The notes under the pieces are model-generated. The model was not told the origin of the DNA. It made no database searches and saw only the letters and a program-made list of their open reading frames with translations. This document shows, in pieces, positions 24,445 to 43,219 of a stretch of 64,000 nucleotides of DNA; position 1 is the stretch's first letter, and each line of letters opens with the position of its first letter. Source of the DNA: Okibacterium fritillariae. GTDB taxonomy: Bacteria > Actinomycetota > Actinomycetes > Actinomycetales > Microbacteriaceae. The stretch spans positions 186,001 through 250,000 of the forward strand of contig NZ_FUZP01000001.1 of the NCBI RefSeq assembly GCF_900167575.1, in the 5' to 3' direction. The translations under genes were made by a program, and so were the position numbers.

Positions 24445-24494
24445 GCGTGTCCACTTTATGCGTTTGTCGTCAGCGTGCGATCTGGCGCATGTCG

Positions 24495-25004: not shown

Positions 25005-25086
25005 AGGTCTCTACCGGTCTTTCATTGGGATGCCAGCGGACGCCTGACAGGAGGTCGATCCGTGACGCGGTCACGACGTGCGTACT

Positions 25087-25371: not shown

Positions 25372-25435
25372 GTGGCCAGGGTATCGACGGAGCGCCAGCC
25401 CGTCCAGCATCCTCCCGGGGGCGAGGCTCGATTCG

Positions 25436-26052: not shown

Positions 26053-26226
26053 CGGTTAGCGATTCCGCTTGTGGGCGGGCGCTGGCAGGCCGCCTTTTAG
26101 GCTCACGGGTCGACTGTGAGGGGATCCAGTCGAAGAGCACGGCGGTGGAGGTGAAGCCCGTCACTCGACGGATGTACGAGGACGGCTGTCCTTCTAGCCT
26201 GGATGAATAAGCAGAAAGGGCACACC

Positions 26227-26409
26227 ATGAATAGCGCATCGAACTCGAAAGTGGATCTCTTCCGGGCCGCGACGGTCTTGACGGTCGTCATTGCTGTCGC
26301 GTTCATCGTTTTCGGACTCGTCGTCCAGAGTTGGATAGTAGTCGCCGTGTTCACCCTCATCGGCATCGCGGGACTCAGCACTTGGCCGACGGCCACTCAT
26401 AACCCCTGA
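26227..26409 (+). CDS. Small two-helix membrane protein
   Basis: 60 residues: a short polar N-terminus, then TVLTVVIAVAFIVFGLVV and IVVAVFTLIGIAGL. ATG 26227 has AGAAAGGG at good spacing, better than the in-frame ATG at 26203. Function unknown. Confidence 0.6.
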   Translation: MNSASNSKVDLFRAATVLTVVIAVAFIVFGLVVQSWIVVAVFTLIGIAGLSTWPTATHNP

Positions 26410-26584
26410 ACGGGCGTGGCATCCGCACCCTGTTGTCAACACTCTGCGACGGAGTCAGTCGGGTAGTTGACCGAACAGTGGGGAAACACACTCGGTGCTC
26501 CGAGCCGCAACAGTACTGTTTGACACCGGGCCATGACCAAGGCGAGCGAGAGAGCATCTGCCGGCTTGGCTCGGGCATACTTCG

Positions 26585-27136
26585 TTAGTCGTCGCCCTCG
26601 ACGAAACTGCAATCGACTGTTCCGGCGCGCTCGTCGGCGACCAAGACGGTGCCGTCGCGGCGGATCTCGCACGAGATGACCGTGGTGGAGACCGCCGTTC
26701 GCGCGTTGATCCCGATGACCGTCGCGTTCGAGTCGAGGGTGATGGTGTTTCCCGAGTCCCACGTCACGCTCGTGCGATCGGCACCGTCCCTGATCACCAC
26801 GTCGACAGGATCCGGGGAGTCGACCTCGATCATGTAGACCGAGGACGGGGCCGCGGCCCCTGAGTAGATCACCGAGCCGACGACGACAGCGGGAACGATC
26901 ATTGCCAGCGTAGCCAGCATGAACGCGATGACGGGCCCGGGGCGAGCGACGGCGGATCCTCGAGCCATGAGAGCGAGAACGAGTGCGACCGCACCGAGGA
27001 CGACAGGTCCGACCAGGAAGGCGACGCGCGACGACGACAGGAGCATCGCCATCGCGAAGAAGACGAGCGCGACGATCGAGAGCACCACACTCGCCAGGCG
27101 CAGCCGCGACACCGCGAGAGTCCGACCTTCAGGCAT
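26585..27136 (-). CDS. Membrane protein with MmpS-like external domain
   Basis: 183 residues. Three or so hydrophobic helices (about 18-95) precede an external domain of about 80 residues (MIEVDSPDPVDVVIRDGADR, ISCEIRRDGTVLVADE, VDCSF) with two cysteines that could pair. The external part resembles the beta-sandwich of MmpS-type proteins; this is weak. ATG 27136 has GAGGGGG upstream. It lies just behind a 50-residue membrane protein gene. Confidence 0.65.
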   Translation of the reverse strand: MPEGRTLAVSRLRLASVVLSIVALVFFAMAMLLSSSRVAFLVGPVVLGAVALVLALMARGSAVARPGPVIAFMLATLAMIVPAVVVGSVIYSGAAAPSSVYMIEVDSPDPVDVVIRDGADRTSVTWDSGNTITLDSNATVIGINARTAVSTTVISCEIRRDGTVLVADERAGTVDCSFVEGDD

Positions 27137-27162
27137 GGGATACCCCCTCATCGAGCGCGACC

Positions 27163-27315
27163 TCACAAGCCCGCGATCTCGGCCGATCCCACGACGAAGT
27201 ACACCAGTATTGCGACGAACGCCACGACGAGCACGACCGCGCTCCAGAACATCGCGATGCGGAGCCGACGTGTCTGTGTGGATTCGCCGGGTCTGTTCCA
27301 GGGTGCACGGGCCAT
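27163..27315 (-). CDS. 50-residue single-pass membrane protein
   Basis: ATG 27315 to TGA 27163 encodes a polar, Arg-rich start (MARAPWNRPGES) followed by one strong helix (FWSAVVLVVAFVAILVYFVV). It sits 26 nt before the next minus-strand gene, so the two are probably co-transcribed. It is short but has a clear membrane-protein pattern. Confidence 0.55.
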   Translation of the reverse strand: MARAPWNRPGESTQTRRLRIAMFWSAVVLVVAFVAILVYFVVGSAEIAGL

Positions 27316-27350
27316 AGAAGAACAATATCTCGCGGTCGGTGAACCAACCT

Positions 27351-27935
27351 AGTTTCGGGCCGGGGTGGCGCTGCGCGGTCGGGGGCGCTCTCAGTTGCCG
27401 GCGCAGCTTCGGGGCGGTGGCGGGTGTCTTCAGGTAGTGAGCCGGCGTGAGTGGTGAGCTCGCGCAGCTGCTGTTTCAGGGCACGGCTTTGCTGGCTCCT
27501 CGCCGCCTGCAGATCGGTGAAGGACACGGTCTCGGAGGAGCGTTCGGGTGCGATCGCGCGACACAAGCACGTGTTGTCGTGGAACACTCGCACCTCGCCG
27601 AGGTCGCGGGGATGCTACCGCACCGTGACGTCTTCGCCGACGTATGCGGCGAGGACCGGTGAGATGTATCGGGTCGATGCGAAGCGGATCCCGTCGCGTT
27701 GTACACGTCGCGTTGCGACCGCAGTCAACAGGAGCGAATCGAGGTCTTCCGGATGGGCGGGCATTCGAGAAATGAAGCTCTCACTCCGCCAGCGAATGTG
27801 AGGGGCTGCGCCGGTCGCTGAATGTGGACGTTCCTTGTACTCGTTGACGATGAATCGCTCGAGCACGTCAGCGAGTTGGTGCAAGGTAATCGTGGATCGA
27901 AAGATACCTTTCCCCGGGAGGCCCCTAGTCACCAA
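27351..27935 (-). mobile_element. Remnant of a DDE/Mu-type transposase gene
   Basis: Read 5' to 3' on the minus strand, fragments of one protein appear in shifted frames. One is an integrase-core end (LADVLERFIVNEYKERPHSA), then YISPVLAAYVGEDVTVR, then a Mu-transposase C-terminal piece (RVFHDNTCLCRAIAPERSSE, FTDLQAARSQQSR). The catalytic DDE part is missing and at least one frameshift is present. No terminal inverted repeats were identified. Its truncated 5' end lies within 30 nt of an array repeat. Confidence 0.75.
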
Positions 27936-27960
27936 GCAGATCTATCCGGTGCGGGATCGC

Positions 27961-28002
27961 GTCCGATAGGGGATGCTTCACCGGACTGGGATTTCGTGAA
28001 AC
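27961..28002 (+). repeat. Array repeat, long form
   Basis: GTCCGATAGGGGATGC, CCGGAC at 21-26 and TTCGTGAAAC ending at position 42. Confidence 0.95.
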
Positions 28003-28009
28003 GGGTGTC

Positions 28010-28720
28010 TCACGGGGTGGGTGTTGCGGTTCCGCGCTTACTGGGGAGGACGGGCTTGATAACGCTCGTGGCGTCAGAAACGGTAGAAGGCGTGGGGGCC
28101 GGGTCGAAAACCCCGACCTTGATGTCAACGCCCTCACAATCCAGGCCGGGTTTGCTGATTCTCGACGTCAGCTTCAGGCCTCCTTCCACCTCGGTGAAAC
28201 CGTAGATGGCGCCTAGTACTCGGATCGGTTTCTCGGGCACCGTTCCTTCCTCGGAAGCCCAGTTGTCGATCTGGCACCCTATGACATGGATTTCTTGTCC
28301 GTCGTCGGTCATCCAGCCTTTCTCCACCGTGAGCGGGGTGAAGGGTCTCGGCCCCGGATATATGAGGAAAGGTGCATCGCGATTCAGCTCCCATTTCGCG
28401 GTCGACGCTTGGTTCGCGAGGTCTGGGTAACCGATGGTTTCGTAGGCTTCCGGCAGCGTGTAGTTGCGTTGGTTGTGTGCGGCGGCCATGGCGGGGAGTG
28501 CTTTGCGGAGTACCTGCACGTACTCGTTGGACTCGAGCTCCCCGGTCGGTGCCCCGTCTTGCCAGACGATGGTCGGGACCGGCTCCGGGGTTGGCTCGGT
28601 TTTCGGGCTGATGACGCCGCACGCAGATGTGCTGATGATGACGCCGGCGAGAATAGCTGCGGTCGCGAGAATGCGTGCGGGGTTCCGCAATCGGTTCCCA
28701 AGAAACGTGTGGTCGGTCAT
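28010..28720 (-). CDS. Lipoprotein of unknown function
   Basis: 236 residues. The signal peptide ends in a lipobox (IISTSAC, Cys about residue 34), followed by a Pro/Thr linker and a mixed alpha/beta domain (PLTVEKGWMTDDGQEIHVIG, two further cysteines). ATG 28720 is chosen; the frame to 28822 would overlap the repeat. Probably anchored on the outer face of the membrane. It is the only gene between the repeats at 27961 and 28803. Confidence 0.75.
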   Translation of the reverse strand: MTDHTFLGNRLRNPARILATAAILAGVIISTSACGVISPKTEPTPEPVPTIVWQDGAPTGELESNEYVQVLRKALPAMAAAHNQRNYTLPEAYETIGYPDLANQASTAKWELNRDAPFLIYPGPRPFTPLTVEKGWMTDDGQEIHVIGCQIDNWASEEGTVPEKPIRVLGAIYGFTEVEGGLKLTSRISKPGLDCEGVDIKVGVFDPAPTPSTVSDATSVIKPVLPSKRGTATPTP

Positions 28721-28802
28721 GCGCCCGCGATAACGGTGTGTGGTATCGGCTGGAACGGGCACGACTACCCATCGCGGTGCACCGGACCGGCGCCCCCAGC
28801 GT

Positions 28803-28827
28803 GTCCGATAGGGATCCTTCACCGGAC
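28803..28827 (+). repeat. Array repeat, short form
   Basis: GTCCGATAGGGATCC (one G fewer) and CCGGAC. The downstream 60 or so bases match those behind the copy at 23988. It is the last copy in the window. Confidence 0.9.
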
Positions 28828-29005
28828 GCCATCCTTGGAGTGCGAGATCCGCGCACTGGCGTGTCTGTGAATCCCAGCACTAACTGGCCGCCAGTTCGCA
28901 GCGTTATCTGACCGCGTACCGGCCTTGGCCAGGTGCTTGCGCCGTTATCTGGCAGCTAGCTCGGTCCGTGTAGCGCTAAATCGACCAATCGGCCTCGAGT
29001 GACGG

Positions 29006-29536
29006 TCAGAAATTCTGATGTGTCTTCCGTGTGGCGTCGTCATAAATGGTGATGAGTTGGTCTAGGAAGCGTTGTATCGTCATTCGCTCTTCCGGAGTCA
29101 TGGATTCCACGAGTTGTTCGACGCCTTCAATCATTGGTAGGACGTGCGAGTACGCCAGTTCCGCCGAGTTCTGCTCGGCGGTGACCACGAGTTTTCGCCC
29201 GTCGGTGGGGTGGCGTTCTCTGTGGATGTGGCCCGCCGTCTCGAGGCGGTTAAGAACAAGCGTGGTCGCGGCGGTGGATATTTCGAGACGTCGGGCGAGT
29301 TCTGTGGGTGTAGCTGGTCCAGTAGATATGAGGTGGTCCATTGCTTCGATGCCGGCCGCGTCGACGCCGAGCTCTTTGGCGAGGTGGCGTTCGAATCGTT
29401 GCTGGCGCACGCCGAGCTGCTGAATCCGAGCCCGGATATCGTCGTCCGCCATGGCTCGCCCGTCACGTCTGGCGGCTTCTCTGTCGCGCCGATCGTCGCG
29501 CTCGGGCGTAGGCCTGACAGAGGTTGCTTTGCTCAT
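29006..29536 (-). CDS. MarR family regulator
   Basis: 176 residues. Winged HTH: ATPTELARRLEISTAATTLV, LNRLETAGHIHRERHPTDGR. A 35-residue charged N-terminal extension precedes the domain. Divergent from a drug-efflux MFS gene, with a TTGATAATCAA palindrome between them, so it very likely represses the pump. Confidence 0.9.
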   Translation of the reverse strand: MSKATSVRPTPERDDRRDREAARRDGRAMADDDIRARIQQLGVRQQRFERHLAKELGVDAAGIEAMDHLISTGPATPTELARRLEISTAATTLVLNRLETAGHIHRERHPTDGRKLVVTAEQNSAELAYSHVLPMIEGVEQLVESMTPEERMTIQRFLDQLITIYDDATRKTHQNF

Positions 29537-29570
29537 TTGCCCATGGTACTACTGATACTTGCTAAAAAAA

Positions 29571-29581
29571 TTGATAATCAA
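29571..29581. promoter_or_regulatory. MarR-type operator
   Basis: TTGATAATCAA, a perfect 11-bp palindrome in the 59-nt space between MarR and MFS starts, the classic MarR-family site type. Confidence 0.65.
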
Positions 29582-29595
29582 GAAATGAGACGATC

Positions 29596-31056
29596 ATGTC
29601 GGATCAGACGGTGCGAGGCACATACAAATGGCGGTGGGTGATTCTCGGCGTGATGCTCGCGGCGGAGATCATGGACCTGCTGGATTCGACGATCGTGAAC
29701 GTCGCCGGGCCTGACCTGGAGAGCTCGTTGGGAGCCTCGGCTCTGGGCCTGCAGTGGGTGATCGGCGGATATGCCCTGACACTGGGCGCCGGTCTCATCC
29801 TCGGTGGGCGCCTGGGTGATCGGTTCGGTCGCCGCCTGATGTTCCTCGTCGGGCTCGCCGGCTTCACGGTCGCGTCGCTTCTCTGCGCGATCGCTCCGAC
29901 AATCGAAGTTTTGATCATCGTCCGACTGGTGCAAGGCCTCGCTGGTGCGATGCTCCTGCCGCAGGGGCTCGGACTTCTCCGTGAAAACTTCTCCGGGAAA
30001 GAGCTCGCGAAGGTATTCGGTGTGTTCGGTCCGGTGCTGGGTCTGGGAGGCATCCTCGGCCCGCTTATCGGCGGTGGGCTCATCGAAGCAGACCTTTTCG
30101 GGTTGGGGTGGCGCGCGGTTTTCCTCGTCAACGTCCCGATCGGGGTCGCCTCGCTGATCATCGCGTGGCGCATCCTGCCGCACCGGACCGGCGACAAAAC
30201 GCTAGGCGTCGACGTAGTCGGGGCGGCCATCATCGTGGCTGCTTCCGCGCTGCTGGTGCTGCCGCTGAACTTCGGTCAGGAAGAAGGGTGGCCGCTGTGG
30301 ACGTGGCTCAGCATTGCTGCCGGCCTGCTGGGCTTTGTACTGTTCGCGTGGCAGCAACGTGCCGCATCAGCACGAGGGCGCACACCTCTGGTGGTACCGG
30401 GGATCTTTTCCCGGCCCGCATACACGCTAGGACTGGCCGGTATCGCGTTGTTCTTCAGCGCTCTCATCGGAACCCAGCTGATCCTCACGCTGTTCCTGCA
30501 GATCGGACAGGGCTTCACCGCGGGCGAAGCGGGACTCGGCAACCTTCCCGTCGCCTTGGGCACAGCAGTCGGTGGAGCAATCAGCGGCGCGTTCCTCGCT
30601 GAAAAGCTTGGCCGGGCAGTGCTCCAGATCGGTGCCTTGGTGCAGATCCTCGGCGCAGCCCTGTTGTGGGTCGAATTAGGAGCCAGCGGGACTTTTAGCA
30701 TCTGGCAGATCGTCCCCGGTATTGCCATTGCCGGCGTCGGGTCCGGCCTGGTAATCGCTGCGCTGTTCAGCATCATCCTCGCCGCGGTCCGCGACGACGA
30801 AATCGGATCCGCGTCGGGTGTACTGACCGCTGTGCAGTCCCTCGCGAGTTCGATCGGTGTCGCCGTCTTCGGGTCAACCTTCTTCTCCGCAATCACGTCC
30901 GGGTCTCCGGCGGACGCGTTCCGCACGACGCTTCTCATCCAAGCGTGCTTCCTCGTCGTATTCCTGGCCCTCACCTTCTTGTTTCCGAAGAAAGGCCGCG
31001 AAGACGAATTCGCCGACACCAGTGATGCCACGAGCGACACGAATGCCCCCGTATGA
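29596..31056 (+). CDS. MFS multidrug efflux transporter, DHA2 (14-helix) type
   Basis: 486 residues with 14 predicted helices. DHA2 landmarks: MDLLDSTIVNVAGPDLE in helix 1, LGDRFGRRLMFLVGLAGFT (motif A), VRLVQGLAGAMLLPQGLGLL, and LGGILGPLIGGGL (motif C). It should export hydrophobic drugs by proton antiport. The stop overlaps the next ATG (ATGA), and the MarR gene is divergent. Confidence 0.9.
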   Translation: MSDQTVRGTYKWRWVILGVMLAAEIMDLLDSTIVNVAGPDLESSLGASALGLQWVIGGYALTLGAGLILGGRLGDRFGRRLMFLVGLAGFTVASLLCAIAPTIEVLIIVRLVQGLAGAMLLPQGLGLLRENFSGKELAKVFGVFGPVLGLGGILGPLIGGGLIEADLFGLGWRAVFLVNVPIGVASLIIAWRILPHRTGDKTLGVDVVGAAIIVAASALLVLPLNFGQEEGWPLWTWLSIAAGLLGFVLFAWQQRAASARGRTPLVVPGIFSRPAYTLGLAGIALFFSALIGTQLILTLFLQIGQGFTAGEAGLGNLPVALGTAVGGAISGAFLAEKLGRAVLQIGALVQILGAALLWVELGASGTFSIWQIVPGIAIAGVGSGLVIAALFSIILAAVRDDEIGSASGVLTAVQSLASSIGVAVFGSTFFSAITSGSPADAFRTTLLIQACFLVVFLALTFLFPKKGREDEFADTSDATSDTNAPV

Positions 31057-31346
31057 CTGACGGGCCCGCGCACCCAAGAACGACCCAGCTAACGACGCGT
31101 GCCGTCCATGTACTCGACCAGCTGATCGCAGGGAGCCCACACGCCTACGTGGACCTCGCATCACGATTACGCTGCACCACCCTCGAGGTCCACAACGCTC
31201 TCTGGGAACTGCACTGCGCCGACAAGATCGATTTCCAGCTCGGACACCGCGGACAGATGACTCACGTTACCCTCCGCCAGCCACCCCGCGCCGCTAGTCG
31301 CGAACCTCGCAATGAAGTGACGACCCAGAAGGATCAAAAGCTATGA
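31053..31346 (+). CDS. Small winged-helix-like protein
   Basis: 97 residues, coupled to the MFS gene. TTRAVHVLDQLIAGSPHAYV, LASRLRCTTLEVHNALWELH and a beta-hairpin (QLGHRGQMTHVTLR) fit a winged helix. It could be a second regulator in the efflux operon; no close family recognised. Confidence 0.6.
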   Translation: MTDGPAHPRTTQLTTRAVHVLDQLIAGSPHAYVDLASRLRCTTLEVHNALWELHCADKIDFQLGHRGQMTHVTLRQPPRAASREPRNEVTTQKDQKL

Positions 31347-31402
31347 GTGAGAAAACCGTCCTGATCTCCGGAGCAAGCATCGCGGGCCCCGCACCGGACT
31401 GA
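31342..31402 (+). pseudogene. 5' fragment of an FAD-dependent monooxygenase gene
   Basis: ATG 31342 overlaps the upstream stop, with AGGAT before it. It encodes MSEKTVLISGASIAGPAPD and then a stop. The GxSIAGP nucleotide-binding start is typical of FAD monooxygenases that often follow MFS drug pumps. The rest of the gene is gone, so this marks a deletion junction. Confidence 0.75.
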
Positions 31403-31765
31403 ATCTCGGCCCAGCAAGGTTGGATCGCCGCTGAACGCGACCAGCTATGACTATGTCAAGGCTATTCGGACCCACCGGGGCAATCTAAGCAGGACTCACT
31501 TCGGGCGCCGCTGCTGGCACTTTGCTCTAGTCGGCGAGTTGGGCTTCGGGGCACGCGTGGTGCGTCGCGATCGTCGCGTTCTCAACGAGAGAGGGCGTGA
31601 AGAACGGCCAGATCTCCGTGGCGCATTCGCGATGCCAACGAGAAGATCAATTGCGGCCGCGGCGGCCACCTCGAGGAACAGCACACGGCACGTGTGAAAA
31701 CCTGAACCCCATCTAGCGCAGGCTAAGAGCGACGAGTCTTTGCGCTCAGCGGCGAACGGGCAGCG
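31403..31765. other. Decayed sequence behind the efflux operon
   Basis: No intact gene. At about 31661-31697 a fragment encodes GGHLEEQHT, matching the third gene of the RES operon (DDGHLEEQHT at 16.65 kb). The rest is unrecognised. Confidence 0.5.
31659..31698 (+). pseudogene. Fragment of a RES-operon third-gene homologue
   Basis: About 30 bases, including GGCCACCTCGAGGAACAGCA, are identical to 16659-16678 in the intact gene. A short but exact match implies another copy of that gene once lay here. Confidence 0.5.
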
Positions 31766-32464
31766 TCACTCGAAGAAGCGAAGACTTTCGAACTGTCTGA
31801 GGTGACGCGCGCAGCATGGACATGTGCGAAGGTGATGTGCAGCCAGTTTTGGTAGCGAGGCTGGCCGGGTCGAGATTCGTGCCGCGTGACGCTTGCATTC
31901 AGGGCCACCTCGCATGAGAAGCAGACGACAGACCTCATTTCCGAGTGCTACGCGCGCTCGGCGTGATCGGGTTGCGATGACTGCCGCCGTCACACAGAAT
32001 TCGCGCGCGAGTTCCTTCGGGCGGCGCCCGCGTACTGCGGTTTCGATCAAAATGCGCTGTTGGCCTTCCGGCAGGTTTGCAACAGCTTGATGGAGAAGTG
32101 TCACATCGTCGGCAAGCTCAATCAGGCGTCGTCGATTGTCGTCTTCATTGATGAACAGTTCCGAGAGCTCAAGGTCGCGTGGATCAGTGACGTATTCTCG
32201 CGACATTGGCGATCGATAGAAATCGATCACGATGTTCTTTGCTGATCGGAGCACATAGGCGCCGACATCGTTTGGTAAAGGCTTGCCTGCACGAGATCGT
32301 TCGGCAAGTCGAAGTATTGCCTCAGATAAGACGTCCTCAGGATCGAGGCGTCCACAGTGGGATCGCAAACGACTGATCAAATAGGCGCGTTGCTCCGCCA
32401 GTTGCACCATAGCAGCGACGGTGGTGTCCAATGTGGCCCCCTCGACCAAAACGAACATGCCCAC
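31766..32464 (-). CDS. ECF-like sigma factor with Cys-rich C-terminus
   Basis: 232 residues. Region 2: CGRLDPEDVLSEAILRLAER and AYVLRSAKNIVIDFYRS. Region 4: VANLPEGQQRILIETAVRGR, RPKELAREFCVTAAVIATRS. A C-terminal tail of about 45 residues carries CKRH and HLRTCPCC, like a built-in zinc-finger anti-sigma module. The first codons are uncertain (GTG 32464 or the ATG two codons on). A broken relative lies at 35.96-36.48 kb. Confidence 0.75.
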   Translation of the reverse strand: MGMFVLVEGATLDTTVAAMVQLAEQRAYLISRLRSHCGRLDPEDVLSEAILRLAERSRAGKPLPNDVGAYVLRSAKNIVIDFYRSPMSREYVTDPRDLELSELFINEDDNRRRLIELADDVTLLHQAVANLPEGQQRILIETAVRGRRPKELAREFCVTAAVIATRSRRARVALGNEVCRLLLMRGGPECKRHAARISTRPASLPKLAAHHLRTCPCCARHLRQFESLRFFE

Positions 32465-33181
32465 TTCGTTGTGAACATGAGAGTGGTTCGTAATGGAGCC
32501 CGTTCTGGTTTGGTTCGGATTTCCTCACTTGCGAGATGCCGATTGTGGCGCGAAGTAGGCCAGTTGGAGGGAGACGTGAACCCGGAGAGTGATGTCGAAT
32601 GTCTTTCTGAGAATTGCTCCATCGCGTGTCATAAATCCGGCTCGACCTCGTCCACATTTAGGTGAGCTTTGTCCGTCGAATCCGCCCGATCGAAACTGAG
32701 CGTTGCGACGACAATCATCGCTTCGGAGTGCGCGGTGTCGCTCTGAACCACTTCTCATAATCGGATGGATCAGCATGGCCAACACTTCGCCCGATGGTGG
32801 AGCGGCTCCCTCGCCGAACGCCTAAATAGCAGCTCACGCAGTGGGCGTTTCGCGAGGCACTCCACTGGGCGCGTAATAGGCGTGAAGCTCGAGGCTCCCA
32901 ACGCTTGAAAGCGGCGAATTCGAGATTAGACGCTCAGACGGAACAGCGAAGTCCCAAGTGGAAGCATCTCGATTCGCGAAGTTATCTCAATATGGGGCAG
33001 ATGGATGACTTAGATGCCATCTGACTTGGGGGCTTCGTGAGCGAATGTGAGTTTCCTCATAAAAAAAGATATGTGCATCACGAAAACCAATTCAGTGCGT
33101 CGTTAAGCATGTAGAAATTCGGCGGCGAAGTGAGCCTACCTGCAGCTAGAAGTCGTCCCGCCTTTAGAGAATCTGAGTGAT
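32465..33181. other. Long gene-free stretch
   Basis: About 0.7 kb without a convincing gene, less GC-rich than the surroundings near 33.05-33.15 kb. It probably holds the promoters of the flanking divergent sigma genes and decayed sequence. Confidence 0.5.
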
Positions 33182-34933
33182 ATGTTCAATTACCCTCCGA
33201 AGTACGAGTCTGCAAGTGAACAGGAATTGGTGGTGTATCTCCGAACCGGAGATACCGCAGCTCTCGCTGAATTGTGGAAGCGCCATGCGCCAGCGGGACG
33301 CATTGCTGCTGCACGATTCCCCGACCATTCAGCGGACGACCTAGTGTCGGAAGCTTTCACACGCATACTCGCAGCCGTTCAGAACGGGAAGGGGCCAGAA
33401 GAATCCTTCCGCCCCTACCTGCTCACAACAATCAAACACCTCGGGTACGAACGGACACATCTGCCTTTGCCGATAGATCCGGCGAACGTCGAGCAACGAC
33501 TCGATAAGGTTTTTGCCGGCCCCTCCGTCGAGACCCTCGCTCTACGAAACGCGGCCAAAAACGTCGGCATAAAGATTTTCCAACAGCTGCCCAAGCGCTG
33601 GCAGGAGGTTCTATGGCTATCCGAAATCGAAGGTCTCAAGCCACGGGAAATCGCGCCGTTACTCAATCTGAAACCGAACGCAGTTTCCGCACTCCACGCC
33701 CGTGCGAGGAAAGGTATGCGCGACGCTTGGTTGCGAGATCACCTCTCTCACTCGCAGAGCCCTTTCTGTGAAAGCGTTATCAACCAGATTCCCGGATACT
33801 TGCGAGGTGCCCTCACTCCAGAGCGAGAGGCAGCAATAAACGAACACCTTGGAAGCTGTGACGGATGCTCCGCATCCCTCGAGGAAGCCAGGACCATTGC
33901 GTCAGGTTTGCTATGGGTCCTCCTTCCAATGCTGTTCACGGTGGCTGGAATCGCACCGTCGATTGTCGGTGCTGACTCATCAGCGATGGCAATGTCGTCG
34001 GCAAGCGCGATGGCAGCAGCTGACCGAACGCGCTCACGTAGCCTCTTCACCGGAGCGGCCTGTGGACTGGTCGCCGTGTCGCTGAGCGCTATCGTCACTT
34101 TCGCGATTGTGGCAGAGCCCACGGCTAAAGGCCCAATATCCGCGAGCGAATCGATCAACCCGCACGAAACGGAACCCACAGAGACTCCGTCGGACACGCC
34201 CATTTACACTCCAACGAATGATCCCGACGCGGAATCCAACACAGCACCGATCCCTGGGCCGCCAACCCAATCTGCACCGACATCGCCGCCCAAACCTGAA
34301 ACGGTCCTCGAGAACTCAACTCCGGTCGTCTCTTCGGACGAGACCACCCCAGCACCCCAGGAGGGACTCGAGGGCAAGTCCGGAATGAAGGTTGCAGACA
34401 TGCAGGTACTTTCATTGGTTGTAGAAAGTGACCCAACCGGCCGTTACCTTCCAATCATCTCCGGGGGTAAGGCGGAAGTTGGGGCGACTATTCAAGTGTT
34501 GTCATCCGAAGGGGCACTACTGGGCAGCGTCGTCGACACTGACGGAGGTGAGTGGCAAATCACTGATCTACCTGGAATGGGCTGGGGTGCACAAACTTTC
34601 GCCGTCCGACAGATAAATGGTGCACGAATGTCTCAGCTCAGCGGCTCATCGACGGTTGAGATCACTGAACCACCCACTCTCATTTCTCCGAAAGAAGGTG
34701 ACCTTGTCGACAGCAGCAGCTATGTGATGGAAATTGTTGGTGAACCGAACGCGACAATGCAGCGCATCGCAAACGGTTCCTTTCGGGACCAAATCATGCT
34801 CTTGGATGATGACGGAGAGTTCGTGCAATCGTTCTCTGCACCGGTCGGAGAAATGGCCCTTGGGCTGCGATACGTTGATCCCTCTTTTGGTCGTTTCGGA
34901 CCCACGCGCATCCAGAGTTTCACCGCGCAATGA
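33182..34933 (+). CDS. Sigma factor fused to zinc finger, membrane segment and Ig-like ectodomain
   Basis: 583 residues in one frame. Region 2 (about 15-85: DHSADDLVSEAFTRILAAVQ, YLLTTIKHLGYERTH). Region 4 (about 118-178: LPKRWQEVLWLSEIEGLKPR, VSALHARARKGMRDAWL). A zf-HC2-like anti-sigma module (about 197-235: PGYLRGALTPEREAAINEHL then CDGC). A hydrophobic stretch at 243-260, and a membrane helix at 285-308 preceded by RTRSRS, which predicts the C-terminus outside. A Pro/Thr-rich linker (310-410) and two Ig-like domains follow. Single-chain sigma/anti-sigma/sensor proteins of this kind are known in Actinobacteria (ECF groups with C-terminal extensions). Release by proteolysis is the likely activation mode, inferred. 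It sits between a second sigma gene and a sortase-anchored protein that may be a target. Confidence 0.85.
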   Translation: MFNYPPKYESASEQELVVYLRTGDTAALAELWKRHAPAGRIAAARFPDHSADDLVSEAFTRILAAVQNGKGPEESFRPYLLTTIKHLGYERTHLPLPIDPANVEQRLDKVFAGPSVETLALRNAAKNVGIKIFQQLPKRWQEVLWLSEIEGLKPREIAPLLNLKPNAVSALHARARKGMRDAWLRDHLSHSQSPFCESVINQIPGYLRGALTPEREAAINEHLGSCDGCSASLEEARTIASGLLWVLLPMLFTVAGIAPSIVGADSSAMAMSSASAMAAADRTRSRSLFTGAACGLVAVSLSAIVTFAIVAEPTAKGPISASESINPHETEPTETPSDTPIYTPTNDPDAESNTAPIPGPPTQSAPTSPPKPETVLENSTPVVSSDETTPAPQEGLEGKSGMKVADMQVLSLVVESDPTGRYLPIISGGKAEVGATIQVLSSEGALLGSVVDTDGGEWQITDLPGMGWGAQTFAVRQINGARMSQLSGSSTVEITEPPTLISPKEGDLVDSSSYVMEIVGEPNATMQRIANGSFRDQIMLLDDDGEFVQSFSAPVGEMALGLRYVDPSFGRFGPTRIQSFTAQ

Positions 34934-35064
34934 TGCCCCGTAACTTTTGCTCGGACAAAGATCTGATCTCACTGAGATCACAGGTTCGATAGACGTTTTC
35001 GACATGAAATAGGCACGTTGGCTCACGCGCCGTGGTTGCCAGAATGCGCCGATGCGGAGAGCTC

Positions 35065-35223
35065 CTAGCCGTGTATGTGCGCCGCTATGCCGTATAGGGA
35101 AAGGGTCAGGCCCACAGCGATCCATGACGGTAGGAGCACTAACCAGGCGATCCTCGCAACACCTGAGTCGCTCCGCGCTTCCTCCTGGCTAGCTTTCAAC
35201 GTGATGCGTGCAGACCTCCGCAT
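35065..35223 (-). CDS. Small single-pass membrane protein
   Basis: 52 residues: a basic N-terminus (MRRSARITLKASQEEARSDS) and one helix (RIAWLVLLPSWIAVGLTLSL). ATG 35223 has AGAAGG upstream. Function unknown. Confidence 0.5.
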   Translation of the reverse strand: MRRSARITLKASQEEARSDSGVARIAWLVLLPSWIAVGLTLSLYGIAAHIHG

Positions 35224-35954
35224 ATGACCCTTCTCTCTGCTTGATGCCGAGCCCAAAAGATCGGCAGGCGTTGGCTGCACATACTTGAGCCAGGAACAAC
35301 GTCGTCAGAGTGGTGAAACTTTTCAACCTGGTTCGTCGACGCCTCTTTTTTCCTTTTCTGAAGTTGTACTCGATATCAGATAGGAGGGATTCTGACGCGT
35401 TACGTGACGCGTGGGCGAGGCCGTGAACAAATAGACCCTTGGCGCTGGACTCCTTCTTCGCCAAAGAGGAAGAGCATGGCTGGTAAGAACCGACTCGCAT
35501 CAATTTCCGCGACAAGTCACGCTCCGAAGGCTTTAGTGGGAGGTGTCGCTTGACGCCCGGTCGGGTCGCAACTGTGGGCGCTCACGGTAATAGACGTGTC
35601 GAGGATTTTCGTTGCTAGAGGCCGCGGCCGTTTAGAAAACTGCCTCGTCTTATGTCTGGCGGCCAGGGGAGGGGGTGGCTTCCATCCAAAGAAGGTCGGA
35701 TACGTCGACATATAGGTGCAGCTGATGATGGCTGCTACCGGCGGCTCTTTTATTGGACTGACGATCGAGTGCATATATCTCGGCCGGTAGTGGTGGATAC
35801 ACAGTCGAGGACGGCTGCGCAATATTTGTTAGGAGATATGCGTCATGTTTTTCGAGATTTCGCGTCGTTATATATGGAGGGCTTAGACAACCTTCCAGGA
35901 TGCGGCTCTTGCTCCATCCCCCGATACGGGCGAGAGCCGCATCATTTGAAACTC
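35224..35954. other. Gene-free, decayed stretch
   Basis: No supported gene; relatively AT-rich around 35.7-35.9 kb. It probably contains degraded accessory DNA. Confidence 0.5.
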
Positions 35955-36480
35955 TGAAATTCTGAGCGCTAAACGTGCTGACTGCTCGGGTTGCGATCAG
36001 TGTTGCCGAGAGGCAGAACTCCCGGGTGAGCTCCTTAGGGCGGCCCTGCGCATGGATGTTCGAACAAGAGGCCCTCTTGGCGTGACGGCCGGCTTGCCAC
36101 CGCCTGATCGAGAAGTTGAACATCGTCGGCTATCTCGATTTAGCGTCGTCGATCGTCGTCTTCATCGATAAGTAGATCTGAGAGCCCGTGTCCGTGCGGA
36201 TCAATGGGGTCCTCTCGCGACAATCGTGATCGGTAGAAATCGATCGCATTATTTTTTGCTGATCGGAGAACGTGGGCGCCAAGATTTCGGGGCAAGGTTC
36301 CCCCGGCACGAAATCTCTCCGCTAGCCGGAGTATGGGCTCGGACAGGACATCCTCCGGATCGAGACGTCCACAGTGCGGTCGCAGGCGTTTGACGAGGTG
36401 GACGCGCTGCCTTGCCAGCTGCGCTGCTGTGAGGGTGTCCAATGTGGCTCCCCAGACCAGTATCGGGCGGGCCGCATCAT
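35955..36480 (-). pseudogene. Frameshifted sigma factor, relative of 31766-32464
   Basis: The first part in one frame reads VWGATLDTLTAAQLARQRVH, CGRLDPEDVLSEPILRLAER and AHVLRSAKNNAIDFYRS. It stops near 36140. The region-4 part continues in other frames (GRPKELTREFCLSATLIATR at about 36.0 kb). Compared with the intact relative it has at least two frameshifts and has lost its C-terminus. Confidence 0.8.
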
Positions 36481-36791
36481 TGTGGCTATGGCTGTGATTC
36501 GCAGCGAACTCCCTCCTGGTTTAGCTTGAATCTCTCCCTTTCTGCTTACAGATCGAGCCGGTGAGACCGGTTCGCCGAATCAGGATCAGATCCACCAAAG
36601 AACAACGCTCAACTTTTTTGGCGAAAATTCGCCAACTAGGCGTCATAAATCTGGATCAATTCCGTCTGTTAGTTCGAGGGCTTTGTCAGTTGCTGATTGA
36701 TCGAACCAAGGCGCTGCAACGACGTATGCCACGTCTGAATGCGTGGCATAGCTCTGAACTAGCACCTAGGAACCTGCTCCGAAAGGACCCC
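36481..36791. other. Upstream region of the surface-protein gene
   Basis: The coding frame of the next gene is open here from 36561 but shows no protein-like character before the ATG at 36792. It presumably carries the promoter; no clear element was identified. Confidence 0.5.
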
Positions 36792-39596
36792 ATGCACGCA
36801 ACAAGACCACCGACCGCCGGAGGCAATACCGGAACGGTCAAGAAAAGCACCGCGGCTGCCGTGCTATTCGCCCTCCTAATGGGCATGATCACCGTCCTGA
36901 ACGTGTTCATCCCAACTCAGACTGCCCTTGCGGCGCCGATCTGCGCACCCGGGAACATCTACGTAAACACAGGAAGTGCTACACCTGTCCTGAACCAGTA
37001 TTCAGACGCAGGTGCGCTCGAAAGCAGCGTGCCGGTTCCGCATTCGTATACGGACATCGCTTTCTCCAGCAATGGCTTGACCCTCTACGGCATCCTCCCC
37101 GGCGTGCCGTTTTTGTACACAATCGACCCCAACACCGGGGCGGAGACTGCACAAATCGCCATAACGGGCCTCCCGGCAAGCAACTACTTCGTCAATGCTC
37201 TGAGTTCGTTGGCTGATGGTTCGCTCCTGGTCGGTGCCTCGCCAGGCGGTGGAGCGACCGCCCAGCAAATCTTCCGCATCAACCCCGCGTCCGGCGTCGC
37301 AACGCTTTACGAAGCCGCTTTCCCAACGGGCTTCGGATCTGCCGGCGACTTCCTCTCCCTTGCGGACGGCGACATCCTCGCGGTTGGTGCGGGGTCGAAC
37401 GGCAATGCACTGTTCCGCATCTCGCCAAGCTTCGCGGTGACCCAGGTCGGTACTGTCCCCGAATCGTTCGGCGCGGCACAAAGCGGTGGCAAGGTCTTCC
37501 TTGCGGGTTCCACTGGCACTATCTACGAGATCACGTCGATCCCCACGGCTGCCTCGACAGCACCAGTGGCCACTACGGCCATCGCAACGACAGGGCTTAC
37601 TCTCTTTGGTGCCACGTCTCAGCAGGACAGCGGCTTATGCTCCGAGCTGACCATCGCAAAATCATCCGATCCAACGTCGGGTACCTTGGTGGCTCTTGGA
37701 CAGACGGTGACTTACTCGATCACGCTGGCGAACGCGAACGGGACCGCTCCTGCGCAGGTCGACCTCACTGATGACCTCTCGTCGGTTCTCGACGACGCGA
37801 CGGTCACAAGCGCACCCGCAGTTTCGTCTGGTACCGCGCTGACTATCGACCCCGTCGCGAATAACGGCTTTAGGATAAGTGGGATTATTCCGGTCGGCGG
37901 TCAGACAACCATCACCTATGCGGTGACGATCAACGACCCAGCAACTGGTGACCGACAGCTGTCGAACTATGTCATCCCTACCGGTACAACTCCACCAACG
38001 TCGTGCGACCCCGACAACCTTGCCTGCACCACGAACCCCATCTCAGATCCGGCTTTGACGATTGCGAAGACGGTTGCTCCGGCTGATCAGACCTCGTATG
38101 AGGTGGGTGAGGAGTTGACGTATTCGTTCCTGGTCACGAACACGGGCAACGTGACGTTGACAGATGTGGTCGTGAACGAAGGTGACTTCAACGGTTCGGG
38201 CGAACTGGGCGCAGTTACGCCAGCATCGGTTGCAACGCTCGCTCCTGGAGCGTCGACGACGTTCACGGCGACCTACACACTGACGCAGGCGGATGTTGAT
38301 CGCGGGAACACGGCGAACACGGCGACGGCCACGGGCGTTCCGCCCACCGGTCCCCCCATTGAGTCGCCGCCATCGACGGTCGAGGTTCCCTCAGTCCCCG
38401 CACCGGCTTTGACGATTGCGAAGACGGTTGCTCCGGCTGATCAGACCTCGTATGAGGTGGGTGAGGAGTTGACGTATTCGTTCCTGGTCACGAACACGGG
38501 CAACGTGACGTTGACAGATGTGGTCGTGAACGAAGGTGACTTCAACGGTTCGGGCGAACTGGGCGCAGTTACGCCAGCATCGGTTGCAACGCTCGCTCCT
38601 GGAGCGTCGACGACGTTCACGGCGACCTACACACTGACGCAGGCGGATGTTGATCGCGGGAACACGGCGAACACGGCGACGGCCACGGGCGTTCCGCCCA
38701 CCGGTCCCCCCATTGAGTCGCCGCCATCGACGGTCGAGGTTCCCTCAGTTTCCGCACCGGCGATCACCGTCGTAAAGACGGCCGACATTGCAGCCCAGGA
38801 AGACTACGTCGTCGGTCAAGTCGTCACTTATTCCTTCCTCGTCACTAACACCGGCAACGTCTCACTCACCGACATCACTGTGAATGAGGGTGAGTTCTCA
38901 GGTGCGGGTGAGCTCTCCGAGGTCACCTGTCCTGCAGAACCGGCCGCCCTGGCACCCGGCGAGCAGATCACTTGCACCGCCACCTACACGGTGGTGCAGG
39001 CAGACGTCGATGCGGGCACGATCACGAACAATGCCACTGTTACCGGTACGCCACCGAACGGGGGCACCCCGCCCACCTCGCCGCCGTCCGAAGTCACGGT
39101 CCCGTCGCCGCCTGCGCCGGGCATCGCGGTCGTCAAGACTGCGAACGTTGAGAAGGCGACCGCGGTTGGTCAGCTCATCACCTACTCGTTCCAGGTGACC
39201 AACACCGGTAACGTGACGCTGAGCAACGTAGCGGTTGATGAAGGTAAGTTCACTGGAGCAGGATCGCTTTCAGCGATCATCTGCCCGGCGGAAGCTGCTT
39301 CCCTCGCGCCTGGTCAGCAAATCACCTGCACCGCCACCTACAAGGTGACGCAGGCCGATCTGACCGCCGGATCGATCAGTAACACCGCGACCGCTACGGG
39401 TGTCCCGCCCACCGGTCCGCCGATCGAGTCGTCACCGTCGACAGTCAAGGTGTCGACAGTCAAGGTGTCGACACCTGGTCTGGGGCTCGCTTCTACCGGC
39501 GCCAACGTGCTGCCTCTAGGCATCGGCGCGATCATCCTGCTTTTCGTAGGAGCCGGTCTAGTCGTAATTCGTCGCACCCGTCGCGGCGCCGCATAG
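36792..39596 (+). CDS. Sortase-anchored surface protein with DUF11-type repeats
   Basis: 934 residues. Signal peptide (VLFALLMGMITVLNVFIPTQ, cleavage near ALAAP). An N-terminal domain (about 45-285, NIYVNTGSATPVLNQYSDAG, with repeated SLADG blades) like a YVTN/DUF6923 propeller. One diverged DUF11-type module (290-415). Four modules of about 118 residues follow, starting near 420, 538, 655 and 775 (YEVGEELTYSFLVTNTGNVT). The last two have a Cys pair (TCPAE, ITCTATY) absent from the first two. The C-terminus is LASTG (about 898), a membrane helix and RRTRRGAA: a sortase signal of the LAxTG type used by class E sortases. ATG 36792 has GAAAGGA at 5 nt. It is probably a cell-wall adhesin. Confidence 0.9.
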   Translation: MHATRPPTAGGNTGTVKKSTAAAVLFALLMGMITVLNVFIPTQTALAAPICAPGNIYVNTGSATPVLNQYSDAGALESSVPVPHSYTDIAFSSNGLTLYGILPGVPFLYTIDPNTGAETAQIAITGLPASNYFVNALSSLADGSLLVGASPGGGATAQQIFRINPASGVATLYEAAFPTGFGSAGDFLSLADGDILAVGAGSNGNALFRISPSFAVTQVGTVPESFGAAQSGGKVFLAGSTGTIYEITSIPTAASTAPVATTAIATTGLTLFGATSQQDSGLCSELTIAKSSDPTSGTLVALGQTVTYSITLANANGTAPAQVDLTDDLSSVLDDATVTSAPAVSSGTALTIDPVANNGFRISGIIPVGGQTTITYAVTINDPATGDRQLSNYVIPTGTTPPTSCDPDNLACTTNPISDPALTIAKTVAPADQTSYEVGEELTYSFLVTNTGNVTLTDVVVNEGDFNGSGELGAVTPASVATLAPGASTTFTATYTLTQADVDRGNTANTATATGVPPTGPPIESPPSTVEVPSVPAPALTIAKTVAPADQTSYEVGEELTYSFLVTNTGNVTLTDVVVNEGDFNGSGELGAVTPASVATLAPGASTTFTATYTLTQADVDRGNTANTATATGVPPTGPPIESPPSTVEVPSVSAPAITVVKTADIAAQEDYVVGQVVTYSFLVTNTGNVSLTDITVNEGEFSGAGELSEVTCPAEPAALAPGEQITCTATYTVVQADVDAGTITNNATVTGTPPNGGTPPTSPPSEVTVPSPPAPGIAVVKTANVEKATAVGQLITYSFQVTNTGNVTLSNVAVDEGKFTGAGSLSAIICPAEAASLAPGQQITCTATYKVTQADLTAGSISNTATATGVPPTGPPIESSPSTVKVSTVKVSTPGLGLASTGANVLPLGIGAIILLFVGAGLVVIRRTRRGAA
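38051..38746 (+). repeat. Two near-identical 354-nt tandem modules
   Basis: 38051-38392 and 38405-38746 appear identical base for base, with the only visible differences in the junction (CCCTCAGTCCCC against CCCTCAGTTTCC). The unit is 354 nt (118 codons), in frame. Neighbouring modules are much more diverged, so this pair is a recent duplication or is kept alike by recombination. Confidence 0.9.
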
Positions 39597-39613
39597 GGAT
39601 ACGTAAGTAACTT

Positions 39614-39655
39614 CGGGCGGGTGGAGTTTCCAAAATCCACTCGCCCGGAGTTATT
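39614..39655 (+). terminator. Intrinsic terminator of the surface-protein gene
   Basis: A stem of about 15 bp (CGGGCGGGTGGA / TCCACTCGCCCG core) with a short loop, followed by TTATTTT, 18 nt after the stop codon. Confidence 0.85.
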
Positions 39656-39730
39656 TTGCGGAACTTGCTTTCATCGGCAGCAATAGATTCGCCGTCATCT
39701 GCGGCTCGTGCACCTGTGGATGACTCGTAG

Positions 39731-39997
39731 TCGCCCACGTCCGAGACACACACGTATAAGGCCTCTTCTCTCGAAGACACGTCTTTCGCAGCGCTGCAGG
39801 AAAGTCGCTGGGCCTTTGCTCAAGCGTTGTATGAACTCTGGCAACGTCTGCCCCTGCGCGTAAAAGACCGTCGAACGGGCGAGGTCAATCTGTGGCTCGT
39901 GAAGCGGGAACTGAATGGGCTCGACGCGGTGCGCGCCGAGATCGAAGCCTGGGACGTTTCGGATGTCGCGACTTTTGTTCGAGAACTCGACGACTAA
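39731..39997 (+). pseudogene. Possible remnant or unstarted small coding region
   Basis: An 88-codon open stretch without ATG or GTG ends in protein-like sequence (ALYELWQRLPLRVKDRRTGE, LDAVRAEIEAWDVSDVATFV). A TTG at 39827 would give 56 residues. Either a 5'-truncated gene or a rare TTG start. No family recognised. Confidence 0.35.
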
Positions 39998-40293
39998 CCA
40001 GCCAGATGCGCGACCTCGCCGGGATCATTACGGAGCCGGGCGATCTCGGCGCCCGCCAGATACCTCCAGGACCGCCCCCTCGGCGAAACGTGACAGGTTG
40101 TCCGGGTGAGGAGCGGCCTGAGCCTGGCTGCCGAACGTAAAGTAGTCGCGTTGAGTGCTTGGCCGGCGGGCGCGCAGGTGCGAAACGATCACACCAGCTG
40201 TCGTACGTGCGGAGAAGAACCGATGCCGTTCCGAAGTAAAGAGACTCTCGAGCGGTGGCTGTCTGAGTTCCGCACTTCTTTCGCGGCCGCCGG

Positions 40294-40857
40294 TCAGCCG
40301 CGCAGGGCGAGCTGTTCGCTGCGCCAGAGCGCATAGAGCTGCCACGGGTCGTCGACGCCCCGGCGCAGAGTGTCGATGTGGGCCAAGAGTTCGTCGTGGG
40401 CCTCGAACCATTCCGAGCGGCCCAGGCGGTGGGCCGCGAACTGCGCGTGGCGCCGCTGCTCGAGCGACCGGTTGCCGCGCTCGAACGCGAGCAGCTCGTC
40501 GTGGCGGATGGCCGCGAGCCGATGCCGCGGCGTCGCCGAGGTGCCGATCTTGATCTGGTCGCGAAAGCGCAAGTAGTAGACGACGTCGACGCGCACGGCG
40601 ATGACATCGGCCTGGTCGACGACGGCGCCGACCCGCCACTCGCAGATCGCGCACATCCACCCCGAGGGGTAGCGGACGCCGAGGCGCGAACCGCACGCGA
40701 GGCACGGTGAGGGCAGCAGGTCGGTCACGCCCGCGTCGCCGGCCACCCAGTCGTGCGCGGCGAGGAGGTGGTCGTGGCACAGGTCGATCGGCGCGCCCGA
40801 GGCGACCGGTTCGCCGCACGCGAGGCCCGTCGAGAGTGGGATGACGCAACCGTCCAT
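40294..40857 (-). CDS. GIY-YIG (T5orf172/MUG113-like) protein with zinc ribbon
   Basis: 187 residues. N-terminal Cys/His-rich part (LCHDH, CLACGSRLGV, CAICEW) likely binds zinc. The C-terminal domain (VVYYLRFRDQIKIGTSATPR, HRLAAIRHDELLAFERGNRS, a later EWFEAHDELLAHI) fits the T5orf172 branch of the GIY-YIG superfamily. Nuclease activity is not certain; members occur on phages and in chromosomes. Confidence 0.75.
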   Translation of the reverse strand: MDGCVIPLSTGLACGEPVASGAPIDLCHDHLLAAHDWVAGDAGVTDLLPSPCLACGSRLGVRYPSGWMCAICEWRVGAVVDQADVIAVRVDVVYYLRFRDQIKIGTSATPRHRLAAIRHDELLAFERGNRSLEQRRHAQFAAHRLGRSEWFEAHDELLAHIDTLRRGVDDPWQLYALWRSEQLALRG

Positions 40858-40915
40858 GCTCGAAGGCTACGGGTCACGGCCGACATCCGACCCGCGCTGG
40901 CTATAACGTTGCAGG

Positions 40916-41584
40916 GTGCAACCCGACAGCAACGCGAGCGATCCTCGCCAGCCCCGAACCCCGCGCACCTCTCGCCCACCCCGCGAGCGCCAGGTCAAAC
41001 ACAGCCGCCTCGAAGACGCCTTCGGCCTCTTCACGGGGGCCTTCGTCGTCTCGTTCGGCCTCTTCCTCTTAAAGGCGTCCGGCGCCGTGACCGGTGGAAC
41101 CGCCGGACTCGCCCTCCTCCTCAGCTATTCGACGCCCGTCTCGTTCAGCATCTGGTTCGTGCTCGTGAACGCACCGTTCATCGCCCTCGCGTTCTGGAAG
41201 AAGGGCGTCGTCTTCACGGTGCGCACCATCATCGCCGTGGTCATCGTCTCGTTGCTGGCCTACCTGCATCCCACCCAGTTGGATGTCTCGAGCATCGGCC
41301 CCGTCTATGGCACGCTCACCGGCAACCTGCTCGTCGGCATCGGCCTGCTCATCATCTTCCGCCACCGCGCCAGCCTGGGCGGCATCAACATCGTCGCGCT
41401 GCTCGTGCAGGACAAGACGGGCTTCAAGGCCGGCTACGTGCAAATGATCTTCGACGTCATCATCGTGGCATCGGCCTTCGCCGTCGTCTCGCCGCTGACC
41501 GTGCTGCTCTCCGCGCTGGGCGCGGTGTTGCTCAACCTCGTCCTCGCGATCAACCACCGGCCCGACCGCTACATCGGGCACTAG
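40916..41584 (+). CDS. YitT family membrane protein
   Basis: 222 residues. After a polar N-terminus of about 35 residues come six or so helices with the YitT-type LLKASGAVTGGTAGLALLLS and SLGGINIVALLVQDKTGF signatures. It lacks the soluble DUF2179 domain of longer members. Function of the family is unknown, probably transport. Confidence 0.85.
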   Translation: MQPDSNASDPRQPRTPRTSRPPRERQVKHSRLEDAFGLFTGAFVVSFGLFLLKASGAVTGGTAGLALLLSYSTPVSFSIWFVLVNAPFIALAFWKKGVVFTVRTIIAVVIVSLLAYLHPTQLDVSSIGPVYGTLTGNLLVGIGLLIIFRHRASLGGINIVALLVQDKTGFKAGYVQMIFDVIIVASAFAVVSPLTVLLSALGAVLLNLVLAINHRPDRYIGH

Positions 41585-41692
41585 CCCAGATTGCCGGGCA
41601 ACCGGTCGCCCCACGTGCCTGGCCGCTCATCGCGAACCGTTCATCGTCAACCGTTGGCCGCGCTATCGAGCGGCCGCCGGGGCTCCCGTTGC

Positions 41693-42583: not shown

Positions 42584-42630
42584 CCCTCAACCGTAGACGC
42601 CACATGCGCCGACGGCATAGACTCTTGCGC

Positions 42631-43215: not shown

Positions 43216-43219
43216 GTGG

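Follow-up and report, generated by a model that had tools for sequence, protein, structure and literature searches.

The window, that is, the whole 64,000-nucleotide stretch of Okibacterium fritillariae DNA analysed here, carries on the plus strand, at 33182..34933, a gene for a 583-residue protein in which sigma, anti-sigma, membrane and Ig-like parts are joined in one piece, as assessed from its intact frame, from Pfam and from an AlphaFold2 model. Translation of the 583 codons gave one open frame with neither a stop nor a frameshift. From the N terminus, the chain comprises sigma region 2 (residues 13-111; 33218..33514) and sigma region 4 (residues 116-190; 33527..33751), both delineated using Pfam and AlphaFold2, and a zinc anti-sigma domain (residues 194-241; 33761..33904) with the ligand set C196-H222-C226-C229, assigned from a zf-HC2 match above cut-off and from ligand conservation. 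These are followed by a probable membrane helix (residues 288-312; 34043..34117), a Pro/Thr-rich linker (residues 313-404; 34118..34393), evident from the sequence and present in the model as low-confidence coil, and two Ig/FN3-like, putatively external domains (residues 405-495 and 497-583; 34394..34930), assigned from AlphaFold2 and from FN3, SiiE and Bap matches.

Pfam searches placed Sigma70_r2 (residues 41-87), Sigma70_r4_2 (residues 133-177) and zf-HC2 (residues 196-229) above cut-off and Big_6 (residues 429-461) weakly, below it, and the NCBIfam sigma70-ECF model scored 53.6 bits against a cut-off of 42.9. With both sigma regions present and the ECF model above its cut-off, the protein belongs to the ECF sigma factors, and with a zinc domain and a membrane segment C-terminal to the sigma regions in the same chain, it carries a fused membrane anti-sigma. 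A FecR-type C-terminal anti-sigma is a feature of ECF243, the group of IutY; no FecR family was found in the one-piece protein in Pfam at E 0.1, zf-HC2 being present instead, nor was any carbohydrate-binding family at the same threshold, Ig/FN3-like domains being present instead. Of the zinc ligands, H222, C226 and C229 are conserved without exception and C196 is found in at least 90% of the aligned sequences; the pattern C/H-x(22-30)-H-x3-C-x2-C is present in 75 of 75 family members, the window protein included. Because several relatives align with the one-piece protein over nearly its whole length, no separate start is needed between its sigma and membrane parts.

The AlphaFold2 model of the protein was built with 48 relatives. 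Helical sigma2 (13-111) and sigma4 (116-190) domains and the anti-sigma helices (194-241) were predicted with confidence, low confidence extended from residue 251 to about 400, and two C-terminal beta-sandwich domains, at about 405-495 and 497-583, were modelled with a pLDDT mostly above 95. The docking of the anti-sigma on the sigma part was not confidently predicted (pTM 0.41 for the full model and 0.49 for a second model encompassing residues 1-262). The solved structures nearest to the sigma part were those of E. coli sigmaE (1or7; Z 11.3, 159 residues aligned, rmsd 9.8) and SigW (5wuq; Z 11.1, 88 residues aligned, rmsd 3.1), with the proviso that helical parts can give unspecific matches at Z values below about 13; both are sigma factors crystallised with their anti-sigma factors, and the sequence matches agree on the sigma identity. 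The C-terminal domains matched FN3 and Ig-like domains, including those of the adhesins SiiE and Bap; the second domain aligned with a CbhA FN3 module (3pe9; Z 9.4, 82 residues, rmsd 2.4) and the pair with SiiE (2yn3; Z 9.6, 158 residues, rmsd 24.4).

Two hydrophobic stretches are present in the protein, at about residues 243-262 and 288-312, with mean hydrophobicities of 1.94 and 2.13, respectively, across 75 family members. From hydropathy and charge bias in these members, the second is most likely an inside-to-outside membrane helix, the exact ends of which we infer. This assignment is favoured because the charges before and after the stretch fit it, the 12 residues preceding carrying on average 0.47 K/R and 0.08 D/E and the 12 residues following 0.16 and 0.92, although by K/R alone the balance is inside-to-outside in 16 of the 75, the reverse in 4 and even in 55. 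Ig/FN3 pairs of the adhesin type, moreover, are usually external, and the first stretch begins directly after the anti-sigma helices in the AlphaFold2 models. These points argue against an arrangement in which both stretches span the membrane, so that the Ig domains would be cytoplasmic and the protein would act at the membrane without release; such a double span, to which the hydrophobicity of the first stretch and the one to two membrane helices stated for fused-type ECFs in PMC8999054 lend some weight, is considered unlikely. The original prediction had described a single chain composed of sigma regions 2 and 4, a zinc-finger anti-sigma module, one membrane helix, a Pro/Thr linker and two Ig-like domains. 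The single chain is borne out by the intact frame and the nearly full-length alignment of relatives, and the sigma and anti-sigma domains, the linker and the Ig-like pair by the family models, the sequence and the structural matches; a membrane segment is likewise present, but two hydrophobic stretches were seen rather than one.

On the same strand, at 36792..39596, lies a gene for a predicted wall-anchored surface protein of 934 residues, recognised from its signal peptide, its DUF7927/DUF7507/DUF11 repeats (Pfam) and a LASTG sorting signal. The hydrophobic N terminus, together with LASTG, a hydrophobic helix and an RRTRR tail, identifies it as sortase-dependent; the NCBIfam LAVTG domain scored below its cut-off (18 against 27). 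The best start, on our reading, is the ATG at 36792, which lies 1.86 kb after the sigma stop, in agreement with the distance of about 1.9 kb given originally, and some 120 bases behind the promoter-like motif described below. Four sortase matches and one M50 site-2 protease match were found in the genome.

The one-piece protein gave one match in its own genome, and its gene gave none in one other genome of the same genus, which was searched in whole. Relatives at E <= 1e-8 were found in 155 of the 398 Microbacteriaceae genomes sampled; beyond this family, named relatives occur in Cellulomonas and kin, Actinokineospora, Amycolatopsis and others, and plasmid relatives in Arthrobacter, Paenarthrobacter, Nonomuraea and Streptomyces. 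Scanning of genome contigs using the window protein alone as the query returned no relative, and a search of plasmids at the DNA level gave no match; an alignment query of the genome contigs did find relatives, and 80 of the 452 resulting loci were kept. The one-piece layout was inspected in 75 loci and 10 named or plasmid proteins, a smaller set than the 155 sigma-bearing genomes. Six of 81 loci (L038, L048, L049, L054, L065 and L102), in which no sigma gene was called, were excluded from the gene-context, tree and membrane counts and kept in the motif scans; the gene caller was crude, with shadow frames merged (cluster 1) and approximate starts. In several loci (L115, L135, L137, L139, L142, L145, L146 and L164) the one-piece sigma frames reach about 1300-2150 residues, with very large C-terminal parts that include DUF11 in L115.

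A sortase-type gene lies within four genes of the sigma gene in 21 of the 75 family members, the window included. On a tree of the 75 N-terminal modules this proximity was clustered, requiring 13 changes compared with 18.5 in shuffles (0 of 500 as low). The window protein pairs with that of locus L039 (100/97), both on long branches, so that their join in the tree may be false.

To search for shared promoter elements, word pairs with a gap of 14-19 were scanned over the 350 bp upstream of 161 family genes, duplicates and the window included. CGTCA-N18-GTCT was found in 50 of the 161 upstreams, the window not among them, whereas in one resampled set no pair was found in more than 11. After removal of near-duplicates, 122 upstreams remained, and a two-box model was trained on 121 of these with the window left out. 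It reads cGCGTCAT[GA] and gcGTCTCTc, 23 bases start to start, and 56 of the 121 real upstreams reached at least 14 bits as against 1 of 605 resamples; the nulls employed for the word pairs, the model and the local motif tests were first-order resamples and not exact shuffles. Because the motif was found in loci with differing neighbours, it is not merely a shared flank. At 18 bits, a copy pointing at the sigma gene was present in 64 of the 161 loci.

The exact form GCGTCAT-N17-GTCTCT has 133 sites in 76 of the 398 Microbacteriaceae genomes, occurring in 66 of the 155 genomes with a sigma match versus 10 of the 243 without one (Fisher p about 1e-21, kinship ignored), so that 89 sigma-bearing genomes have no exact site. 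Sigma-bearing genomes hold 121 of the 133 sites; for a reversed control pattern the count was 16, with 10 in sigma-bearing genomes. G040, a genome that is 83% complete and lacks a sigma match, has three exact sites, one of which precedes an anchored surface protein (L264). In the loci nearest to the window on the tree the motif scores are low, at 9.5 bits before the surface gene of L039 and at most 7.0 bits in L031; in L044 a site of 13.8 bits points away from the sigma gene.

Forty distal sites, away from sigma genes, were chosen from the 133 for genus spread before what follows them was viewed. A surface rule of our own, requiring a signal peptide and an LxxTG-type anchor, was passed by a protein starting within 320 bp at 13 of the 40 sites, in 8 genera, compared with 46 of 4000 random positions in sigma loci under the same rule; 31 of 815 called genes of at least 150 residues in those loci pass it. 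The remaining 27 sites precede other genes, point into intergenic stretches or possibly lie inside genes, and the rule missed three proteins that look anchored by eye (L232, L244 and L252). Of the distal targets scanned for domains, L225 and L243 are of the choice-of-anchor G type, L235 and L236 of the choice-of-anchor A type, and L253 carries pAdhesive_15. Motif-bearing surface proteins near a sigma gene include one with LRR and CshA repeats (L043), another choice-of-anchor G protein (L068) and one with SdrD_B (L128).

Within the window, the two highest plus-strand sites of the 64 kb both lie in the gap between the sigma and surface genes. The top-scoring one, GCGTCAT-N17-GTCGTT at 35839..35870 (+), reaches 19.8 bits, a score that 3 of 1500 resampled versions of the 1.86 kb gap also attained. 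The other, GCGTCAT-N17-GTCTGT at 36639..36670 (+) before the surface gene, reaches 18.3 bits and matches GCGTCATN17GTCT without a mismatch; when the 300 bp upstream of that gene were resampled, 1 of 5000 sequences did as well. On the minus strand, a site of 17.5 bits lies at 62644. Two sites of at least 18 bits compare with a mean of 0.125 in forty resampled windows. Upstream of the sigma gene itself, where it might serve autoregulation, the promoter-like variant GCATCAC-N17-GTCGTT at 33074..33105 (+) scored a weak 12.1 bits under the model from which the window had been withheld, and 18 of 5000 resampled versions of its 300 bp upstream stretch scored as well. Because sites of this strength are not rare here (5 at 12 bits or above in the window against a resampled mean of 2.8 in forty resampled windows), it is notable only for its place.

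The window sites are variants, the full 13-base consensus GCGTCATN17GTCTCT being absent from the genome as a whole; of the 11-base form GCGTCATN17GTCT the genome contains three sites, one of them in the window. A loosened GCRTCAYN17GTCKNT has 4 genome sites, 3 of them in the window, a pattern fitted to the window and therefore circular for two of the three, and its fourth site is also present in the sister genome. The motif shared by the upstreams of 33182 and 36792, for which a check had been proposed originally, is strong before the surface gene and weak before the sigma gene. The proposal that the surface protein is a plausible target gains support, at the level of predicted promoters, from the 36639 site and from the same motif preceding sortase-type proteins elsewhere.

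The best explanation overall, which we regard as probable, is that of a tethered one-piece ECF sigma factor that is released on a signal and reads GCGTCAT-N17-GTCTCT promoters of its own gene and of surface genes. At rest, the anti-sigma part and the membrane would hold the sigma part inactive; a signal at the external Ig-like domains would then release it, most likely by regulated intramembrane proteolysis, as suggested by the kind of protein, and the freed sigma part would read these promoters. In the relatives, the predicted promoters stand before the sigma gene itself, allowing positive feedback, and before sortase-anchored surface proteins; in the window, variants stand before the sigma gene (weakly), before the surface gene at 36792 and, in the gap separating these genes, before a stretch that can fold into a hairpin. 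As far as sequence comparison can establish it, sigma factor, motif and surface protein go together; that this sigma factor reads this motif, like every signalling step, is what we infer.

Some of the family's gene contexts would also suit an ordinary orphan one-piece ECF sigma factor with another regulon, the surface gene being a chance neighbour in a variable region. Many relatives occur in recurrent contexts without an adjoining surface gene (clusters 1, 2, 8 and 15, read by eye as what we take to be glyA, MFS gene, purU and sdh gene contexts), and in 54 of the 75 family members the four-gene neighbourhood lacks a sortase-type gene. The motif before the surface gene, at the resampling level given above, and its presence before distal surface genes in 8 genera both count against such a coincidence, to which only a small chance is given.

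Behind the site at 35839, the stretch 35868..35975 (+) folded as a candidate small RNA with a 16-bp terminator-like hairpin (-42.9 kcal/mol, z -5.1, a stability reached by 0 of 200 shuffles), its transcription being presumed. In many loci of the family a second strong motif copy points away from the sigma gene, divergently within 500 bp in 54 of the 161 loci and from just behind the sigma gene in others. No common reading frame was seen behind this outgoing motif in most Microbacteriaceae, as judged by eye and by a simple frame rule. A frame of 216-275 residues starts directly behind the divergent copy in L115, L133, L137, L150 and L183; that of L133 has no Pfam or NCBIfam match and that of L115 no NCBIfam match.

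Fifteen units, all belonging to the single genus Agromyces (L070, L076, L078, L091, L116, L136, L138, L159, L161-L163, L166, L170, L171 and L180), show a hairpin with a fixed GGGGAACA loop after the outgoing motif; 11 are named loci and four come from the genus that includes the Agromyces sp. S2-1-8 contig. In the alignment 83.3% of the cells are paired, both partners vary in 9 of 14 pairs, and the covariation score was 0.292 compared with 0.151 in shuffles (0 of 500 as high) and at most 0.197 when the alignment was slid, which makes this hairpin a candidate RNA family. The fixed loop is absent from the window hairpin behind 35839. Rfam at gathering scores gave nothing in 9 kb of the window and five hits in eight whole relative loci, namely four FMN riboswitches and a ZTP riboswitch, each lying kilobases away from the outgoing motif. 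The hairpins may be either regulatory RNAs or short leaders that end at terminators also used by convergent genes. More tentatively, and at less than even chance, one-piece sigma factors across Microbacteriaceae might run a compact adhesion switch in which autoregulatory feedback is coupled to sortase-anchored adhesins and to a small structured RNA made from the second promoter copy next to the sigma gene; the window RNA would then fall within 35868-35975, the Agromyces RNA being divergently placed.

For the genomic setting, the window was aligned with a sister genome of the same genus. Positions 40290-45164 and 1-8811 align at 93-97%, no match to about 23282-40289 (about 17 kb) was found in the 40 kb used for this comparison, and GC is 54-57% at 32-37 kb versus 67-69% right of 40 kb. 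A second, small ECF-like sigma gene of 232 codons is located at 31766-32464 (-) and, like the one-piece sigma gene, is absent from the whole sister genome. A decayed copy of it (72% DNA identity) occupies 35960-36459 (-) in the sigma-surface gap, so that the gene and its copy each lie on the minus strand upstream of a plus-strand module gene. Because of the missing sister-genome counterpart, the low GC and the decayed small-sigma copy, the sigma-surface module looks like an acquired, partly duplicated unit. Elsewhere in the window, identical or near-identical motif hits at about 3448-4196 and 22271-23019, always 18823 bases apart, indicate an internal duplication, and both stretches match the same stretch of the sister genome; a frame at 22574-23218 (+), of 214 residues, appears sigma-like by eye and lies behind a frame with a membrane segment.

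The same features, namely the decayed sigma copy in the gap, the low GC and the absence of an equivalent from the matching position in the sister genome, together with the weak promoter variant at 33074 and the missing full-consensus site, could indicate a locus in decay that has lost its function in this strain. The sigma and surface frames are nevertheless long and intact, and the zinc ligands and sigma domains are kept, which leaves this reading improbable. Least probable is that the motif is read by the small sigma factor of 31766-32464 (-), an ECF-like neighbour with a decayed copy beside the surface gene, since the motif was discovered before one-piece sigma genes and co-occurs with them, the small sigma is absent from the other genome of the genus, and its tblastn hits among the collected loci outside its own genome have 25-31% identity, those that could be placed being one-piece genes.

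The preferred reading, a tethered sigma factor freed to act on surface genes, can be set against several known or related systems. Neighbourhoods were examined for 9 of the 17 plasmid records with a match. In plasmids of Arthrobacter alpinus and Paenarthrobacter sp. OM7 (L273 and L274), the sigma gene stands beside genes for a SpaH/EbpB pilin, SpaA and a class C sortase, with no Microbacteriaceae-type motif of 14 bits near it; no site of 14 bits was found in 8 of the 9 plasmid stretches, three Micrococcaceae and five Streptomyces stretches among them. The Streptomyces plasmid proteins L271, L272 and L277-L279 resemble the window protein in joining sigma regions and an external-type domain in one chain, and the gene of one of them adjoins that of an LAETG surface protein; four other Streptomyces plasmid neighbourhoods carry no sortase-type annotation, and two further records carry no annotation there. 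These proteins differ in that their C-terminal domain is a ricin-type lectin, Pfam at E 0.01 detects no zf-HC2 in them, their identity of about 31-33% is confined to the sigma part, and no motif site reaches 14 bits.

As one-piece proteins, these sigma factors join sensor, brake and transcription factor in one chain. The motif and the target class, that is, sortase-anchored proteins, alongside pilus genes that neighbour the sigma gene in two Micrococcaceae plasmids, make the predicted function directly testable and suggest how these bacteria may decide when to build surface structures. Among the matches listed in a literature search by title and abstract opening, which covered few subscription papers, none links one-piece ECF sigma factors to sortase-dependent proteins, and the putative promoter motif and surface-protein regulon are the new part relative to the literature consulted.

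IutY of Pseudomonas putida (ECF243) likewise combines a sigma factor and a membrane anti-sigma in one chain and is activated by regulated proteolysis, as described in PMC8999054, but it serves iron-starvation surface signalling, whereas in the window protein the anti-sigma is of the zinc-finger type and Ig-like domains are present. Closer in layout are the fused sigma/zinc-finger/membrane proteins of Actinobacteria, which the same source assigns to ECF48, ECF52 and ECF53; it gives ECF48 and ECF53 a C-terminal zinc-finger anti-sigma and one or two membrane helices, names no regulon for them in the section consulted, treats proteolytic release as an expectation for the actinobacterial fused groups and presents SCO4117 as the best understood case (PMC8999054). 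For SCO4117 (ECF52, Streptomyces coelicolor), autoregulation is reported and proteolytic release proposed in PMC5826349, and its single chain of sigma factor, zinc finger, membrane region, Pro-rich linker and external domain is that of the window protein. According to the same source, SCO4117 differs in carrying a carbohydrate-binding module outside, where the window protein has Ig/FN3-like domains, in a proposed motif of CSGYN-17bps-SRHA as against GCGTCAT-N17-GTCTCT for the window family, and in targeting development and antibiotic genes, where surface-protein targets are predicted here (PMC5826349). By architecture as described, the layout is therefore of the known ECF48/52/53 kind, exemplified by SCO4117, from which it differs in the Ig-like domains and the predicted regulon.
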